A stretch of 64,000 nt of DNA from Bacteroidota bacterium. GTDB taxonomy: Bacteria > Bacteroidota > JABWAT01. Under the pieces are notes generated by a model. The model did no database searches, was not told the DNA's origin, and worked only from the letters and a program-made list of their open reading frames with translations. The position numbers and the translations under genes were made by a program. Location: contig JAKLJL010000007.1 of NCBI GenBank assembly GCA_023151185.1, positions 62,001 to 126,000 of the forward strand, read 5' to 3'. Positions 13,946 to 20,552 of the stretch are shown one piece after another (position 1 is the stretch's first letter; each line of letters opens with the position of its first letter).

Positions 13946-15280
13946 ATGAGCAAAACGATCATGGCCTCCATTGGCATTTTCGCCGTTTTCTGTATTTTTC
14001 TGGCAGTCGCCCTGACCGGCGTTTCCCCCCACGGTCCTATTGTCCTCGGCATCCGGGCAGAATTTTTACTGTTTGCCCTGACTCTCATCGGGGTTGCCCT
14101 GTTTCATCATCACGTTCTGGAAGTAGCTCTTACCGGACTTGTTTCGATTCTGATCCTGAAGTTTGCCTTTATACCCGGGTTCGATCTGATGCACCATATT
14201 GTGGGATCCAATTCTCTTGCAGACCAGATCCTCAATAAAGATATGCGTCAGGGAGAATGGCCGATCCTGCTGAACCTGTTCGGACTTTTGCTCGGGTTTG
14301 CCCTTCTTGCCAAGCATTTCGAAGAATCCAATATCCCGGCACTCCTTCCCAAATTCCTTCCCGATGACTGGAAAGGTGGATTTGTTCTGCTGATTCTGGT
14401 CTTTATTCTATCCTCTTTCCTGGACAACATTGCCGCAGCCATGATCGGCGGAACAATTGCCCTCGTGGTATTCAAGGGAAAAGTCGATATCGGGTATCTG
14501 GCAGGTATTGTTGCAGCCAGCAACGCCGGTGGTGCCGGGTCTGTGGTCGGCGATACGACCACCACAATGATGTGGATTGACGGAGTCGCTGCTGCCGATG
14601 TGTTACATGCTTATGTTGCAGCCGTTCCTGCACTTTTGATTTTCGGGTATTTTGCCGCTAAAAAACAGCATGCATTCAACCCGATTACACGGGATGCCGC
14701 GGTCACTGCCACCATCGATTTTTCAAAAATCGGGGTTGTGGTTATGATTCTGGCAGGTGCCATTCTGACCAATGTATACTTTGATTTCCCGGCTCTGGGT
14801 GTCTGGGTTGCAATATTACTTGGAGCCCTGTTCACCAAAACACACTGGGCTGAAATTCCGGCTTCTTTAAAAGGATCCGTGTTCCTGCTCTCCCTCGTGA
14901 TGTGTGCCTCGATGATGCCGGTTGACGAACTGCCTCCGGCAAGCTGGTTTACGGCCCTTTCCCTCGGGTTCATTTCTGCGGTCTTCGATAATATCCCTCT
15001 AACCAAACTGGCGCTTGATCAGGGTGGATATGACTGGGGATTCCTGGCGTATGCAGTCGGTTTCGGTGGCTCGATGATCTGGTTCGGATCCTCTGCCGGG
15101 GTTGCCCTTTCGAATATGTATCCGCAGGCAAAATCGGTCGGCGCTTACCTGAAGCACGGCTGGTTTGTAACGGTTGCCTATGTGGTCGGATTCTTCATCC
15201 TGCTGGCTGTAATGGGCTGGACGCCTCACCCACCCCATAAGTCTGAATCCGGGAAGCCTGCTACAGAAATGCATCACTAA
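13946..15280 (+). CDS. Ion-transporter-superfamily permease, NhaD/citrate-transporter type
   Basis: This 444-aa integral membrane protein has about eleven hydrophobic segments. Key motifs are S-S-F-L-D-N-I-A-A-A-M-I-G-G-T, N-A-G-G-A-G-S-V-V-G-D-T-T-T-T-M-M-W and, in the second half, A-V-F-D-N-I-P-L-T. The paired D-N helix breaks and the N-A-G-G-A-x-S-x-x-G-D-x-T-T-T-M-x-W motif are those of NhaD-like Na+/H+ antiporters and the related citrate/arsenite permeases. Position at the head of a cation-transport block favours Na+ antiport over anion uptake, but the substrate is inferred. A terminator separates it from kup. Confidence 0.72.
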   Translation: MSKTIMASIGIFAVFCIFLAVALTGVSPHGPIVLGIRAEFLLFALTLIGVALFHHHVLEVALTGLVSILILKFAFIPGFDLMHHIVGSNSLADQILNKDMRQGEWPILLNLFGLLLGFALLAKHFEESNIPALLPKFLPDDWKGGFVLLILVFILSSFLDNIAAAMIGGTIALVVFKGKVDIGYLAGIVAASNAGGAGSVVGDTTTTMMWIDGVAAADVLHAYVAAVPALLIFGYFAAKKQHAFNPITRDAAVTATIDFSKIGVVVMILAGAILTNVYFDFPALGVWVAILLGALFTKTHWAEIPASLKGSVFLLSLVMCASMMPVDELPPASWFTALSLGFISAVFDNIPLTKLALDQGGYDWGFLAYAVGFGGSMIWFGSSAGVALSNMYPQAKSVGAYLKHGWFVTVAYVVGFFILLAVMGWTPHPPHKSESGKPATEMHH

Positions 15281-15298
15281 CGGAACCTGGTTTTCACT

Positions 15299-15340
15299 GG
15301 AGAGAGATCGGATACCTGTCTGACCTCTCTCCTTTTTTTT
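15299..15340 (+). terminator. Intrinsic terminator after the NhaD-like permease
   Basis: GGAGAGAG (15299-15306) pairs with CTCTCTCC (15325-15332) and eight T residues follow directly. It begins 18 bases past the permease stop and ends before kup. Confidence 0.85.
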
Positions 15341-15361
15341 GACTTGATTAACGGCACGTTC

Positions 15362-17278
15362 ATGACAACTGACTCTGCCCCGGCGGGCAATAAATCCCTC
15401 ACCCAGCTCCTTCTGGCCTTTGGTGCCCTCGGCGTTGTGTACGGGGATATCGGGACCAGCCCACTGTATGCGTTCAACGAAACTTTTTTTGGGCACTATC
15501 CGGTTTCCAGAAATCCGGTTGATATCATTGGGGTACTTTCTCTTTTTTTCTGGGCACTCACCCTGGTCATTTCCGTAAAATACCTGATTTTTATTCTCCG
15601 CGCAGATAATCACGGTGAAGGGGGTGTTTTTTCTGAACTGTCCCTGATTCAGTCAAAAGGCAGGAAAACGCCGGTCTTTGTCTTTATTTCCTTCCTGCTG
15701 GCCTTCGGGGCCTGCCTGCTGTACGCCGAAGGCCTCATCACCCCGGCTATTTCGGTTCTTTCTGCTGTTGAAGGTCTTGCCATTATTGCTCCCGGATTCA
15801 AATCTGCTGTCGTACCCATAACTGTGGTCATTCTGATTCTGCTGTTTATGGTTCAGCGGATCGGAACGGGAAAAATTAGCCGGTATTTCGGTCTGATCAT
15901 GCTGGTTTGGTTTCTATCCATCGGGTTGCTGGCGGTTCCCTACATTATTGCCCACCCTCAGGTGCTTGAAGCGTTAAATCCGGTCAATGCCGTTTCTTTT
16001 CTGTTTACCCATCAGTTTCACTCCCTGTTTGTTCTGGGGGCTGTTACCCTGTGCATCACCGGTGGTGAAGCCTTATATGCCGATATGGGACATTTTGGGC
16101 GAACACCCATCCGGATTGCCTGGTACTTCGTGGTGTATCCCTGTCTGGTTCTGAATTATTTCGGACAGGGCGCTTATCTGCTTGCAGACGGAACTGTTTT
16201 TAACGGAAATGTCTTTTATTCACTGGCACCCGACTGGTTCCTGATCCCATTGGTGATTCTGGCCACCATGGCCACGGTAATTGCCTCGCAGGCCCTGATT
16301 TCAGGCGCCTTCAGTCTGACCCAGCAGGCCATTGGTCTCGGGTTTTTCCCCCGGATCAAAATCGTCCACACCAGCCACGAACTGCACGGCCAGATCTATA
16401 TGCCCGCTGTAAACTGGCTGCTCATGGCCGGAACCATCGGGCTGGTCCTTGCCTTTAAAAGTTCCTCGAACCTTGCAGTAGCCTATGGGTTAACCGTCAC
16501 AGCCACCATGTCGATAACCACCTTCGGATTTTTTATTGTGGCAACCGAAGTCTGGGGTTGGCGGAAGGTTTGGGTGGCACCCGTCATTTTTTTCCTGTTC
16601 ATGATCGATTTCACCTTCTTTACCGCCAACACATTAAAGTTCCTGCAGGGCGGTTTTGTTCCTGTGGTCATCGGGCTGGGACTGTTCTCGGTAATGTGGC
16701 TCTGGAACTGGGGCAGGGGCAAACTTGGCGAAGTATACCGGCAGGCAACCCTGACCCTTGGCGACCTTTTTGCCCTGAAAGGGGTTGAATGGCAGGGACG
16801 GATGCCGGCTAAAATCAACTTTTTCTCACCCTCTCCGGTTGTTGATGAAAACAGCCAGATTTCCCTTTCCCTGCAAACCTTTATCACCCGGTATCACATG
16901 CTGCCATCCGGGCTGTCGTTTATAACCGTTCAGATCAGTCCGCAGCCGGTTTGGAACGGGCCAAGGGTTGTGAAGTACAATCTGCCCGAAGGCATGATTT
17001 CCATCGTGATCCGGTACGGTTATATGGAAGAAATTAAACTGGCAGAAATTCTGGAACGGGAGAATATTAAAGGAAGCATTCTGGTCGGGGATCATGAAAT
17101 TGTTTCGGATGATTCCTCTGCCTGGCATAACCTGAAAGTCAGAGCATTCAGGAATCTGCTCAGACTGGCTCTGCCCACTTACCGGTATTTCGGAATGCGG
17201 GGTCAGACCAAGATCATCAAGGAAATCATGCCGGTTGAATTCACAAAAAAGACAGCATTCCTGCTGGACGTTGAGTAA
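15362..17278 (+). CDS. kup: Low-affinity potassium uptake protein Kup
   Basis: The protein opens with the Kup signature F-G-A-L-G-V-V-Y-G-D-I-G-T-S-P-L-Y-A, has about twelve membrane helices, G-G-E-A-L-Y-A-D-M-G-H-F-G and a cytoplasmic C-terminal domain of about 150 residues; length (638 aa) is typical. Kup imports K+ with H+. I took the ATG at 15362; a TTG at 15344 would add six residues, and neither has a clear ribosome-binding site. The last 52 codons have a degenerate second copy at 17440-17598, left from a former paralogue. Nine bases downstream starts a truncated response regulator. Confidence 0.92.
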   Translation: MTTDSAPAGNKSLTQLLLAFGALGVVYGDIGTSPLYAFNETFFGHYPVSRNPVDIIGVLSLFFWALTLVISVKYLIFILRADNHGEGGVFSELSLIQSKGRKTPVFVFISFLLAFGACLLYAEGLITPAISVLSAVEGLAIIAPGFKSAVVPITVVILILLFMVQRIGTGKISRYFGLIMLVWFLSIGLLAVPYIIAHPQVLEALNPVNAVSFLFTHQFHSLFVLGAVTLCITGGEALYADMGHFGRTPIRIAWYFVVYPCLVLNYFGQGAYLLADGTVFNGNVFYSLAPDWFLIPLVILATMATVIASQALISGAFSLTQQAIGLGFFPRIKIVHTSHELHGQIYMPAVNWLLMAGTIGLVLAFKSSSNLAVAYGLTVTATMSITTFGFFIVATEVWGWRKVWVAPVIFFLFMIDFTFFTANTLKFLQGGFVPVVIGLGLFSVMWLWNWGRGKLGEVYRQATLTLGDLFALKGVEWQGRMPAKINFFSPSPVVDENSQISLSLQTFITRYHMLPSGLSFITVQISPQPVWNGPRVVKYNLPEGMISIVIRYGYMEEIKLAEILERENIKGSILVGDHEIVSDDSSAWHNLKVRAFRNLLRLALPTYRYFGMRGQTKIIKEIMPVEFTKKTAFLLDVE

Positions 17279-17287
17279 TAGTTTGGC

Positions 17288-17455
17288 ATGAAACCGGCAA
17301 TCCTGATCATTGATGATGAAGCCAAGCTTCGGATGCTGCTTTCCCGTCTGTTCAAAATGGAAGGGTACCGGGTTTTTGAAGCCGGGACCGGTGAAGAAGG
17401 ACTTTCCATTGCTGCTGCTGAACCAATTCAGGTCGCAGTTGGTTTCATGATCTGA
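17288..17455 (+). pseudogene. Response-regulator receiver fragment truncated by a deletion junction
   Basis: An ATG nine bases after kup opens 55 codons that read as the first half of a receiver domain: A-I-L-I-I-D-D-E-A at the acidic pocket, then helix 1 and strand 2 (Y-R-V-F-E-A-G-T-G-E-E-G). At A-E-P-I-Q-V-A-V, where a receiver should continue L-D-x-x-M-P with the phospho-acceptor Asp, the sequence switches to the tail of a kup gene in another frame and stops five codons later. The product would lack Asp acceptor, Lys and output domain. Spacing suggests the intact gene was transcribed with kup. Confidence 0.82.
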
Positions 17456-17598
17456 AAGTACGCCTGTTCCGGAACCTGCTCCGGCAGGCCTTCCCCACCT
17501 ACCGGTATTTCGGCCTTCGGGGACACACCAAAATTATACGGGAAATCATGCCCGTAAAAATAACCCCCACCAGCGCCTGGCTGATGAATGTGGAATAG
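17440..17598 (+). pseudogene. C-terminal remnant of a second kup gene
   Basis: From 17440 to the TAG at 17598 a frame of 52 codons aligns without gaps to the end of the upstream Kup. Shared blocks include L-K-V-R-x-F-R-N-L-L-R, P-T-Y-R-Y-F-G, R-G-x-T-K-I-I and E-I-M-P-V, with about 60 percent identity by eye. There is no start or membrane domain. Its frame differs by two from that of the response-regulator fragment to which it is joined. The simplest reading is a former order kup1-regulator-kup2 from which one deletion removed the end of the regulator and nearly all of kup2. Confidence 0.85.
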
Positions 17599-17623
17599 GG
17601 TAACCCTCCTGACAGTGGCCCGT

Positions 17624-17799
17624 CCCTGGCCCTGCCCGTCACCGGCGGGAGTTATCAATTTAAAAGTGTTCAGGGTTATAAGTTACTCCGAATCAGGCAA
17701 TTCAAAAAATCAATTGGGTTCCGCCCATTTCCCTGTCTTTTAAAACCCCAAAGCAGGTTCCCATTTCTATTCCCGCCACGTGAACGGGGAGGGCCAGGG
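17624..17799. repeat. Imperfect inverted-repeat element in the gap after the kup remnant
   Basis: CCCTGGCCCTGCCCGT (17624-17639) returns as its reverse complement with one mismatch, ACGGGGAGGGCCAGGG (17784-17799). Similarity continues inward with small gaps (GGCGGGA on the left, TCCCGCC near 17771). The interior is noncoding and A+T richer. This non-genic stretch (17599-17868) otherwise shows nothing recognisable. It may be a MITE- or REP-like element or recombination debris. Confidence 0.45.
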
Positions 17800-17868
17800 T
17801 GGGGTCGGCACCACTAACCCTCAAAAATCCGTCTTGTAAATCCACCGACTTATTCTTAACTTCCGGTC

Positions 17869-18393
17869 ATGAATTTACCGCAGCAAAATCCGGATTTTTC
17901 GGCAGAGATTCTTCAGGGTGATCTGCTGTTCACTCCGGCCGGTGCCATTCTCTGTCCATGCAGCCAGAACGGCAAACATGATCTGGGAATCTGCCGTCAG
18001 ATCCTGCATCTGGCAGGCCGTGAAATTGAAAAGCAGATCCGGATGGGCAACTCGAAGCCCGGCAGTTTTATCACCGGTTCCGGCCGCCTGGCCATGAGAC
18101 GGATCGGCAAAATTATCCATCTGAATGTATCACCCGAACCGCCTTTGAAACCGGCCATTGAAACTGCACTTGATCAGGCTCTTGCTCTTTCGGTAAAAAA
18201 CAATCTGCCTGTCCTTTCGCTTGGTTCCCTGAATGCAACCGCATTTGGCCTTTCCTGGCAGGATGCAGCAACTTTGGCAGGCGGCTTCATCGCCAAAGCC
18301 CGGTCCGGTTCCGGTATCCGGCAGATTCTGATCCGGGATTCCAATTCACAGTTTATTTCGAAATTAGTAGAGGTTTACCATGCACCAGCCTAA
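17869..18393 (+). CDS. Divergent macro-domain protein
   Basis: The 174-aa protein follows the macro-domain plan: I-L-Q-G-D-L-L (about 14-20), A-G-A-I-L-C-P-C-S-Q where ADP-ribose binders usually have D-A-I-V-N-A-A-N, A-G-R-E-I-E-K-Q near 49, a G-S-F-I-T-G-S-G-R-L stretch, K-I-I-H-L-N-V, and a second loop S-L-G-S-L-N-A-T-A-F-G-L in place of I-G-T-G-x-x-G. Macro domains bind ADP-ribose or related ligands and some hydrolyse its esters. Loss of the Asn pair and the G-G-G loop argues against hydrolase activity and for binding or a changed ligand. It overlaps the Nudix gene by 14 bases and leads a four-gene operon with a K+ channel. Confidence 0.68.
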   Translation: MNLPQQNPDFSAEILQGDLLFTPAGAILCPCSQNGKHDLGICRQILHLAGREIEKQIRMGNSKPGSFITGSGRLAMRRIGKIIHLNVSPEPPLKPAIETALDQALALSVKNNLPVLSLGSLNATAFGLSWQDAATLAGGFIAKARSGSGIRQILIRDSNSQFISKLVEVYHAPA

Positions 18394-18853
18394 AGGGCAG
18401 TTTACTTATGACTATCCCAGACCAATGGTTACCTGTGATGCCGCCGTTTTTTCACAGAAGGACCACAAAGAATGGCATATTCTGCTGATCGAACGGAAAA
18501 ACGACCCGTTCAAATATCACTGGGCCCTTCCCGGCGGATTTATCGAAATGGAAGAAACCCTTGAACAAACAGCCCTTCGTGAACTGAAGGAGGAAACCGG
18601 GATCCACGAGGTAGGACTCGAACCCTTCTGGACCTACGGCGACCCGGGCCGGGACCCCAGGGGACGGGTTATCACGGTGGTCTTCATCGGGCGGATCGAT
18701 TGGGAACATGCGATGGAACAAACCCATGCCGGCGATGATGCTGCCAATGCCCGGTGGTTCCCTTTCAGTAAACTGCCGGTGCTGGCCTTTGATCACCGGG
18801 AAATCATCGACCACCTGCTCAGTGAATTCCCGTTTAGCTCTGATCATCTGTGA
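18380..18853 (+). CDS. Nudix hydrolase, ADP-ribose pyrophosphatase-like
   Basis: The 157-aa protein has a complete Nudix box (residues 53-75, G-x5-E-x7-R-E-L-x-E-E-x-G-I) preceded by H-W-A-L-P-G-G-F, which positions the Mg2+-binding glutamates. Upstream D-A-A-V-F and downstream G-D-P-G-R-D-P-R-G-R-V-I-T-V-V-F agree with the family that splits ADP-ribose or similar nucleoside diphosphates; Nudix substrates cannot be fixed from motif alone. It overlaps the macro-domain gene by 14 bases and its TGA overlaps the GTG of the K+ channel by four (GTGA), so the three are probably translationally coupled. Confidence 0.85.
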   Translation: MHQPKGQFTYDYPRPMVTCDAAVFSQKDHKEWHILLIERKNDPFKYHWALPGGFIEMEETLEQTALRELKEETGIHEVGLEPFWTYGDPGRDPRGRVITVVFIGRIDWEHAMEQTHAGDDAANARWFPFSKLPVLAFDHREIIDHLLSEFPFSSDHL

Positions 18854-20034
18854 AACCGGTTTATAAATATTTCCGCCGGTTTTATCACAGCTATGTTCTG
18901 TTTTTCAGATCACTGTTTACTGATTTACCGCACGAAGTCTACAAAATTGCAACCGCAGTTCTTTCTCTGATCATTATCGGCGGAATTGTTGTTCATTTTA
19001 TTGAAGCAGAAGCCAACCCGCTGTATTCCACCATAGAAGATTCCATTTACTGGGCTGTGGTGACTGTTTCGACAACCGGGTACGGCGATATTGTCCCCAA
19101 AACCACCATCGGCCGGATTGCCTCGGGCACAATGATGCTGTTCGGGATAGTAATCATGTCTTTGTTTACTGCTTCCATTTCTTCCATTCTTGTGTCCAGA
19201 AAAATTCAAACCCAGCGTGGTCTTATGTCGATTTATGTAAAAAACCACCTCGTTATCTGCGGATATTACCCAACACTGCGCAATGTGATCCTTTCCCTGT
19301 TCAGGGAAAAACCGGATCTGCACATCGTGATGATCAACGATCAGGAACAGGATCTTATTGATCTGCTGATGAGTGAATTTTCGGGCAAACATCTCCATTA
19401 CGTCAGAGGGAATTACGCCAATGAAACTTTCCTGGAGAAGGCCCGGATCAAGGATGCCGGCTCAGTCATCATCCTGCCGGATATCAGCCATCAGAAACCG
19501 CCCGGCCGGTTCGATGAACTGACCCTGATGACCGTGCTGACTCTGAAGCAGGTTGCGCCAACCGCCAAAATTTACACCCACGTCTATGACCGGGAACTTG
19601 TTCCCCACCTGAAACGGGCCGGTGTCGACGGATACATTATTTCGGATGAAATTTCTGGTGAACTTATGGCCGGGTTTATCTCGGCTCCGGGTGCGCCCCA
19701 GGCTGTAAAACAACTGATGTCGCTGAACTCGGTTCAAAACCTGAAAGTCATCCCCGTACCGGAAGTTTATACCGGAAAAACCTATCAGGAGTTTATGACT
19801 GAAATGAAATCGGCTTCAAACACTCTGGTTCTCGGTTTTATTTCGGTTGAAGAACAGATTGATCTGAATGCCATCCTCTCGAATGACATGTCGGCAATTG
19901 ATGTTTTCATTCAGAAGAAATTCAAGGAAGCCGGTATCGGGGCAGATAAATCTGACCAGGTTCAGGTAAATCTGAATCCGCCGCCCGATTACCTTATTCA
20001 GGCCAATGATGCCGCTTTAATTTTGGGAGCCTGA
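18850..20034 (+). CDS. MthK-like potassium channel with RCK domain
   Basis: This 394-aa protein begins at a GTG inside the Nudix stop. A first membrane helix (about 33-51), a pore helix with selectivity filter T-T-G-Y-G-D (75-80) and a second helix (about 90-115) form a two-helix K+ channel. A cytoplasmic RCK region follows: H-L-V-I-C-G-Y-Y-P-T-L opens the RCK-N fold as in MthK, with G-N-Y-A-N-E-x-x-L-x-K-A further on, and an RCK-C domain lies at about 290-394. RCK domains gate channels with Ca2+, Na+ or nucleotides such as NAD(H), ADP or c-di-AMP; the ligand here is unknown. A separate cyclic-nucleotide-binding gene follows after two bases. Confidence 0.9.
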   Translation: MKPVYKYFRRFYHSYVLFFRSLFTDLPHEVYKIATAVLSLIIIGGIVVHFIEAEANPLYSTIEDSIYWAVVTVSTTGYGDIVPKTTIGRIASGTMMLFGIVIMSLFTASISSILVSRKIQTQRGLMSIYVKNHLVICGYYPTLRNVILSLFREKPDLHIVMINDQEQDLIDLLMSEFSGKHLHYVRGNYANETFLEKARIKDAGSVIILPDISHQKPPGRFDELTLMTVLTLKQVAPTAKIYTHVYDRELVPHLKRAGVDGYIISDEISGELMAGFISAPGAPQAVKQLMSLNSVQNLKVIPVPEVYTGKTYQEFMTEMKSASNTLVLGFISVEEQIDLNAILSNDMSAIDVFIQKKFKEAGIGADKSDQVQVNLNPPPDYLIQANDAALILGA

Positions 20035-20036
20035 TC

Positions 20037-20552
20037 ATGAGCAAGCAGCTAACTCTCGAAGAACTTGCCGGGATTCCGCTTTTCGGAGGAGTTCCCAAAG
20101 ACAAATTATCAAAAATTCTGAGTATCATTTCCTATGAATCACACGGCCCGGGGGTTAAGCTGATTCTGGACGGGGATTTCGGTGATTGTGTCTATATTTT
20201 GCTCGAAGGCGATGTGGAAATCACTAAAATGATGACCCTTTTGCCCGATACCCCGGCCGCCAACCCGGAAAAATCACTCATTAAACTGAACGGCAGCTAT
20301 AAACCGTTCATCGGTGAACTGAGTTTGTTTGATGAAGAATCCAAACGGACCGCCACTGTCAAATCACTGACCCCTGTTCAGGTTGCGGTGATAAAACGGC
20401 AGGATTTTATGGATGTTGCCGAACATGATTTCGAAATCGGTTTCAGAATCATGCTGAATATCTCCCGAACCCTGGCCAAACGTCTGGGAAAAGCCAATGT
20501 GGATATTCTGAAACTGACAACAGCATTTTCCCTTGCCCTGACCAAACGGTAA
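20037..20552 (+). CDS. Stand-alone cyclic-nucleotide-binding domain protein
   Basis: The 171-aa protein is one CNBD with a helical tail. Helix L-E-E-L-A-G-I-P-L-F-G-G-V is followed by the beta roll (V-Y-I-L-L-E-G-D-V-E-I). The phosphate-binding cassette keeps Glu94 in I-G-E-L-S-L-F and Arg104 in K-R-T-A-T-V, so cAMP or cGMP binding is plausible. No helix-turn-helix follows, so it is not a CRP-type activator, and there is no membrane segment. About ten extra residues are inserted in the roll (L-L-P-D-T-P-A-A-N-P). It starts two bases after the K+ channel stop, which suggests it acts with the channel in trans. Confidence 0.85.
   Translation: MSKQLTLEELAGIPLFGGVPKDKLSKILSIISYESHGPGVKLILDGDFGDCVYILLEGDVEITKMMTLLPDTPAANPEKSLIKLNGSYKPFIGELSLFDEESKRTATVKSLTPVQVAVIKRQDFMDVAEHDFEIGFRIMLNISRTLAKRLGKANVDILKLTTAFSLALTKR

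Follow-up and report, generated by a model that had tools for sequence, protein, structure and literature searches.

The stretch at 17288-17598, between kup1 and the following macro-domain gene, is very probably a compound pseudogene, in which a single illegitimate deletion of ~5.2 kb joined the two ends of a lost operon encoding a sigma54-dependent (NtrC-type) response regulator, a membrane histidine kinase, and a second Kup-family potassium transporter (kup2). The window, by which we mean the whole stretch of DNA analyzed (64,000 nucleotides, G000:C25:62001-126000), comes from a 3.74-Mb genome assembled in 27 contigs. In window positions, the scar and its surroundings are:

15362..17278, + strand: kup1, an intact K+ transporter of 638 aa (Pfam K_trans 2.8e-175, K_trans_C 7.7e-10; 86% identical to kup1 of two congeners)
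17288..17437, + strand: remnant 1, the opening 50 codons of a response regulator of the NtrC type (Response_reg profile 1-46; best congener match the kup2-linked regulator, 61%)
17438..17442, + strand: probable deletion junction, ~5.2 kb missing relative to the congeners; receiver homology stops and kup2 homology starts
17440..17598, + strand: remnant 2, the last 52 codons and stop of kup2, frame-shifted relative to remnant 1 (89% identical to Kup2 of G001 over 54 aa, versus 68% to the genome's own kup1)
17599..17868, no strand: intergenic DNA reaching to the macro-domain gene; the final ~45 bp of this DNA are conserved 5' of the same gene in the congeners
17869..18393, + strand: macro-domain gene, the first intact gene 3' of the scar (Pfam Macro 8.9e-6), syntenic with kup1 in the congeners

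The first remnant opens with an ATG at 17288, 9 bp past the kup1 stop, and residues 5-50 of its reading frame (17288-17455) match positions 1-46 of the 111 in the Pfam Response_reg profile (E 1.1e-6, slightly below the gathering score). Receiver homology reaches the Val-Gln-Val codons immediately 5' of the junction, and the cut falls just 5' of the phospho-acceptor Asp codon. In another frame, 17440-17598 translates to WFHDLKVRLFRNLLRQAFPTYRYFGLRGHTKIIREIMPVKITPTSAWLMNVE followed by a stop; this peptide gives a gap-free alignment with the C-terminal end of the upstream Kup (35/50 identical, E 3e-23), and DNA similarity to the congeners' kup2 starts precisely at 17440. These matches bear out the first-pass annotation, which had described a receiver start fused to an out-of-frame Kup C-terminus at about 17438-17442. 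Relative to the intact orthologues, 50 of 443 regulator codons and 52 of 638 kup2 codons are retained, and both scar frames are still open. A whole-genome search matched kup at kup1 and at the scar tail and in no third place. Downstream of the scar, DNA at 17828-17873 matches G001:C1 and G002:C29 at 80-83%. The wider region (13946-20552) is an ion-transport neighborhood, comprising a membrane transporter that matches no Pfam model, kup1, an RCK-type K+ channel, and the small protein encoded after it, and this block is conserved in the congeners.

The content of the lost segment can be read from relatives, which for this comparison comprised two congeneric species (G001 and G002) and a sister genus (G003), among the four genomes of the class. 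Each congener carries a kup1 orthologue (86%) within a shared block (transporter, kup1, macro, NUDIX, K+-channel) and, away from kup1, a second kup (69-70%) that is the last gene of a one-strand operon running from response regulator through histidine kinase to Kup2:

L033 5666-11215: intact regulator-kinase-kup2 operon, G001
L035 8112-13705, - strand: intact regulator-kinase-kup2 operon, G002

In both congeners the regulator (443 aa) combines receiver, Sigma54_activat, and HTH_8 (Fis-type helix-turn-helix) domains; the histidine kinase (611 aa) has 4HB-MCP, HAMP, PAS, HisKA, and HATPase domains; and Kup2 is 638 aa long. The scar head finds its best match in each congener in the kup2-linked regulator (61%; 55.8 and 55.3 bits, with the next best at 27.9), while the scar tail is ~90% identical to congener Kup2, versus ~70% (68-70%) to its own kup1. 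In the congeners, one contiguous unit begins with the regulator and finishes with kup2; the two parts match its 5' end and its 3' end, in the same order and on the same strand. Measured on G001 coordinates, the deletion spans ~5.24 kb and includes the whole kinase gene. Elsewhere in this genome there is no intact orthologue of the regulator, the kinase, or Kup2 (best regulator 38%, best kinase 32%). We also considered whether the tail might be a partial duplicate of the genome's own kup1, and rejected this because it carries the Kup2-specific residues FHDLKVRLF, RQAF, and GHTKIIREIMPVKIT.

The two remnants, the intact operons of two congeners, and the lack of a second copy in this genome are all evident from the assembled sequences, and they agree with the earlier proposal that one deletion took the greater part of both a regulator and a second kup, since both orthologues are intact in the congeners and none is left here. 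That proposal was right about the regulator and kup2 but could not have detected the histidine kinase lost with them, and it did not specify that the regulator was an NtrC-type sigma54 activator. Its suggestion that K+ uptake in this organism once had a linked regulator is likewise supported by the congeners' intact operons. As a separate observation, the histidine kinases of G001 and G002 are only 77% identical, against 97-98% for the regulator and Kup2 on either side, and DNA identity drops to 58-80% inside the kinase gene (L033:7301-9100 versus L035); this divergence suggests allele exchange or diversifying selection.

It is very unlikely that the genome in fact holds an intact regulator-kinase-kup2 operon from which the assembler dropped ~5.2 kb. 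Although the assembly is a 27-contig draft, it is 97.7% complete and the missing genes lie on no other contig; the lack of any other regulator, kinase, or Kup2 orthologue also argues against a dropped contig piece. The joint is moreover internal to a 187-kb contig, and a 661-bp query spanning the junction matches at full length only itself, so there is no long repeat at the junction able to cause a false join. A conserved functional mini-gene, encoding a receiver cut short or a peptide from the Kup C-tail, is extremely improbable. The two open frames and the few amino-acid changes in the tail might seem to favor it, but few changes are also what the recent loss of a constrained gene predicts, and the fused form, whose conservation in relatives would have counted against a scar, occurs in neither congener. 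The receiver ends before its phospho-acceptor and before the AAA+ and DNA-binding parts, and the tail does not open with a start codon. With no phospho-acceptor Asp in the head, and neither a start codon nor the membrane part in the tail, the scar most likely yields no functional product. Taken alone, the deletion scar is an ordinary pseudogene.

Patterns of codon change point to a loss that is recent on the scale of between-species synonymous change, as had been proposed from the well-kept protein similarity of the tail. Remnant 2 differs from Kup2 of G001 by 23 synonymous and 5 nonsynonymous codon changes, close to the 20 synonymous and 4 nonsynonymous differences in the kup1 tail of the same species pair (dN 0.09 for the scar tail versus 0.067 for the kup1 tail). 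With ~115 nonsynonymous sites in the tail, 5 changes allow at most ~10.5 at 95%, and neutral change since the deletion would therefore be below ~0.06-0.09 per site, compared with synonymous change between the species of the order of 1.5-2. An earlier decay of the head than of the tail, which the head's 61% identity might suggest, is not needed: other receiver pairs between these species share 50-94% identity over their first 50 aa (a range that excludes one apparently non-orthologous pair at 43%), and because 61% falls within this spread it is not evidence of older decay.

The order kup1-regulator-kinase-kup2 holds for this lineage alone and need not be the ancestral one. The first-pass annotation had taken kup1-regulator-kup2 as the ancestral arrangement and expected relatives to keep an intact regulator and second kup between kup1 and the macro gene; the order stands for this lineage, but neither these genes nor the scar is present in that interval in the two congeners. 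There, the macro gene lies 2.5-3.2 kb from kup1, and the interval holds unrelated genes: an ECF sigma factor, a zinc-finger-like small protein, and a rhodanese-like lipoprotein (named from their sequences). The congener operon is on a contig other than that of kup1, behind a heavy-metal-binding lipoprotein gene and adjoining an amino-acid permease that is also found in this genome, in a rearranged setting without the operon. No kup was found in the sister genus G003.

With the congener operon at a different locus, only the scar indicates that the operon stood beside kup1 in the ancestor. It is plausible, though slightly short of an even chance, that the congeners' locus is the ancestral one and that in this lineage the operon collapsed only after it had been relocated behind kup1 (or after kup2 had arisen or moved through recombination with kup1). 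The operon sits elsewhere in both congeners, the genes surrounding the permease are arranged differently from species to species, and the homology of the scar begins exactly at the regulator start codon, 9 bp past kup1, where a different gene precedes the regulator in the congeners. On the other side, the direction of the change is not polarizable with three species of the genus and a sister genus without kup, and such a move would alter the history of the operon, not the deletion itself. Side-by-side kup copies are recurrent, with tandem kup-kup pairs in several unrelated genomes (L016, L046, L054, L067, L069, L101, and L105).

Linkage to potassium transporters appears to be a trait of the lost regulator's family. 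Its homologues (E<=1e-115) occur in 63 of 394 genomes of the phylum, nearly always one per genome, with ~50-57% identity over their length. We inspected the neighborhoods of 20 such loci: 14 have kdpA and kdpB 3' of the regulator, and in another three the same regulator-kinase pair adjoins trkH and trkA (L212:6281-12999, L215:712-6607, and L216:8123-13496). One of the 14 kdp loci (L205, 8111-13859) has kup between the sigma54 regulator and kdpA, such that Kup and Kdp share a regulator locus; at another locus, L207, kdpA lies 6 kb downstream of the regulator. Linked kinases at L211, L212, L215, and L216 are homologous to the G001 kinase from the N-terminus (33-37% over ~600 aa). In a phylogenetic tree, the K+-linked regulators, including those linked to kup2, form one clade apart from four NtrC paralogues (100/100, with a bootstrap that had not fully settled). 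A member of the regulator clade at L201:6473-8742 is arranged convergently with an ion-channel gene (Ion_trans, 302 aa). In two betaproteobacterial loci (L056:7751-11878 and L072:532-4647), genes for a kinase and a receiver protein immediately precede kup; this two-component linkage to kup is a separate one. No KdpA was found in any of the four genomes of the class, where controls were detected. Our search of open-access papers turned up no account of a sigma54 regulator acting on kdp or kup in Bacteroidetes.

These loci also share a candidate operator. The dyad YCAWWWTGR (also given as TCAWWWTGA) was seen 29 times versus 3.6 expected, and in 17 of 20 stretches versus 3.2 expected, often paired ~20 bp apart; the stretches searched were those between regulator and transporter or, in the congeners, between the regulator and kinase-kup2. 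Some dyads that closely follow the regulator gene could, instead of binding the regulator, serve as transcription terminators. Both congeners keep GGCACGGGACTTGT ~50 bp 5' of the kinase gene, a near-consensus sigma54 box of the form GGCAC-N5-TTG that is imperfect in having TTGT rather than TTGC (shuffle p 0.03-0.045). Upstream of kup1, no sigma54 box was convincing. The palindrome CCGACCTCCCGGTCGG, together with its variants, is repeated several times in the regulator-kinase spacer of the congeners (L033:7020-7290 and the corresponding gap of L035).

Where the operon is intact, its kinase may sense K+ shortage or a related state and phosphorylate the regulator, which would then bind the TCAWWWTGA dyads and drive a putative sigma54 promoter 5' of kinase-kup2. 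We infer K+ sensing and promoter control by the two-component pair, and control of the adjacent transporter is predicted from the motif evidence. A K+-responsive sigma54 module that usually heads kdpABC in the phylum would thus have become attached to Kup2 in this genus; since the genus has no KdpA, this attachment probably took place in this lineage before the loss. The window's genome would then have lost regulator, kinase, and kup2, leaving kup1 without a linked regulator. Because the regulator belongs to a K+-linked clade with a common dyad, the scar may be regarded as what remains of a sigma54 two-component system linked to potassium, first tied to Kup and later lost. In our judgement it is an even bet that the phylum holds an undescribed sigma54 K+ regulon, with an NtrC-type activator, often a 4HB-HAMP-PAS kinase, and a TCAWWWTGA operator, whose transporter partner switches among Kdp, Trk, and Kup, and which here moved to a duplicated Kup and has just been lost. 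The scar is of wider interest as a pointer to an intact operon in which a K+ regulator family normally tied to Kdp was apparently attached to Kup, as a lead to a candidate unnamed K+-responsive regulon with a predicted operator, and as the mark of a natural loss mutant for comparison with its sister species.

The scar itself does not differ in kind from the deletion-fusion pseudogenes (operon remnants) of bacterial genomes, in which a single deletion joins two truncated gene ends whose orthologues are intact in sister species. A close known parallel to the congener operon is the KdpD/KdpE two-component system, which controls inducible K+ uptake by kdpFABC (PMC5458449): in both, a two-component pair is encoded with a K+ uptake system, and the congener regulator's own family heads kdpABC in the phylum. 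However, KdpE is an OmpR-type regulator, whereas the congener regulator is NtrC-type and sigma54-dependent; KdpD/KdpE is linked to kdpFABC, whereas the congener operon is linked to Kup in a class without KdpA; and the congener kinase (4HB-HAMP-PAS-HisKA), unlike KdpD, has no KdpD domain match. Kup2 belongs to the same family as Kup (TrkD), a low-affinity K+ transporter (PF02705, PF22776), but while Escherichia coli Kup is described as constitutively expressed (PMC5458449), congener kup2 lies in one operon with a two-component pair of its own. Finally, the congener regulator has the receiver, sigma54-interaction AAA+, and Fis-type HTH domains common to the NtrC-family regulators AtoC, ZraR, and NtrC, but it falls below the cut-off of all NCBIfam models shown and belongs to its own clade of regulators linked to K+ transporters.
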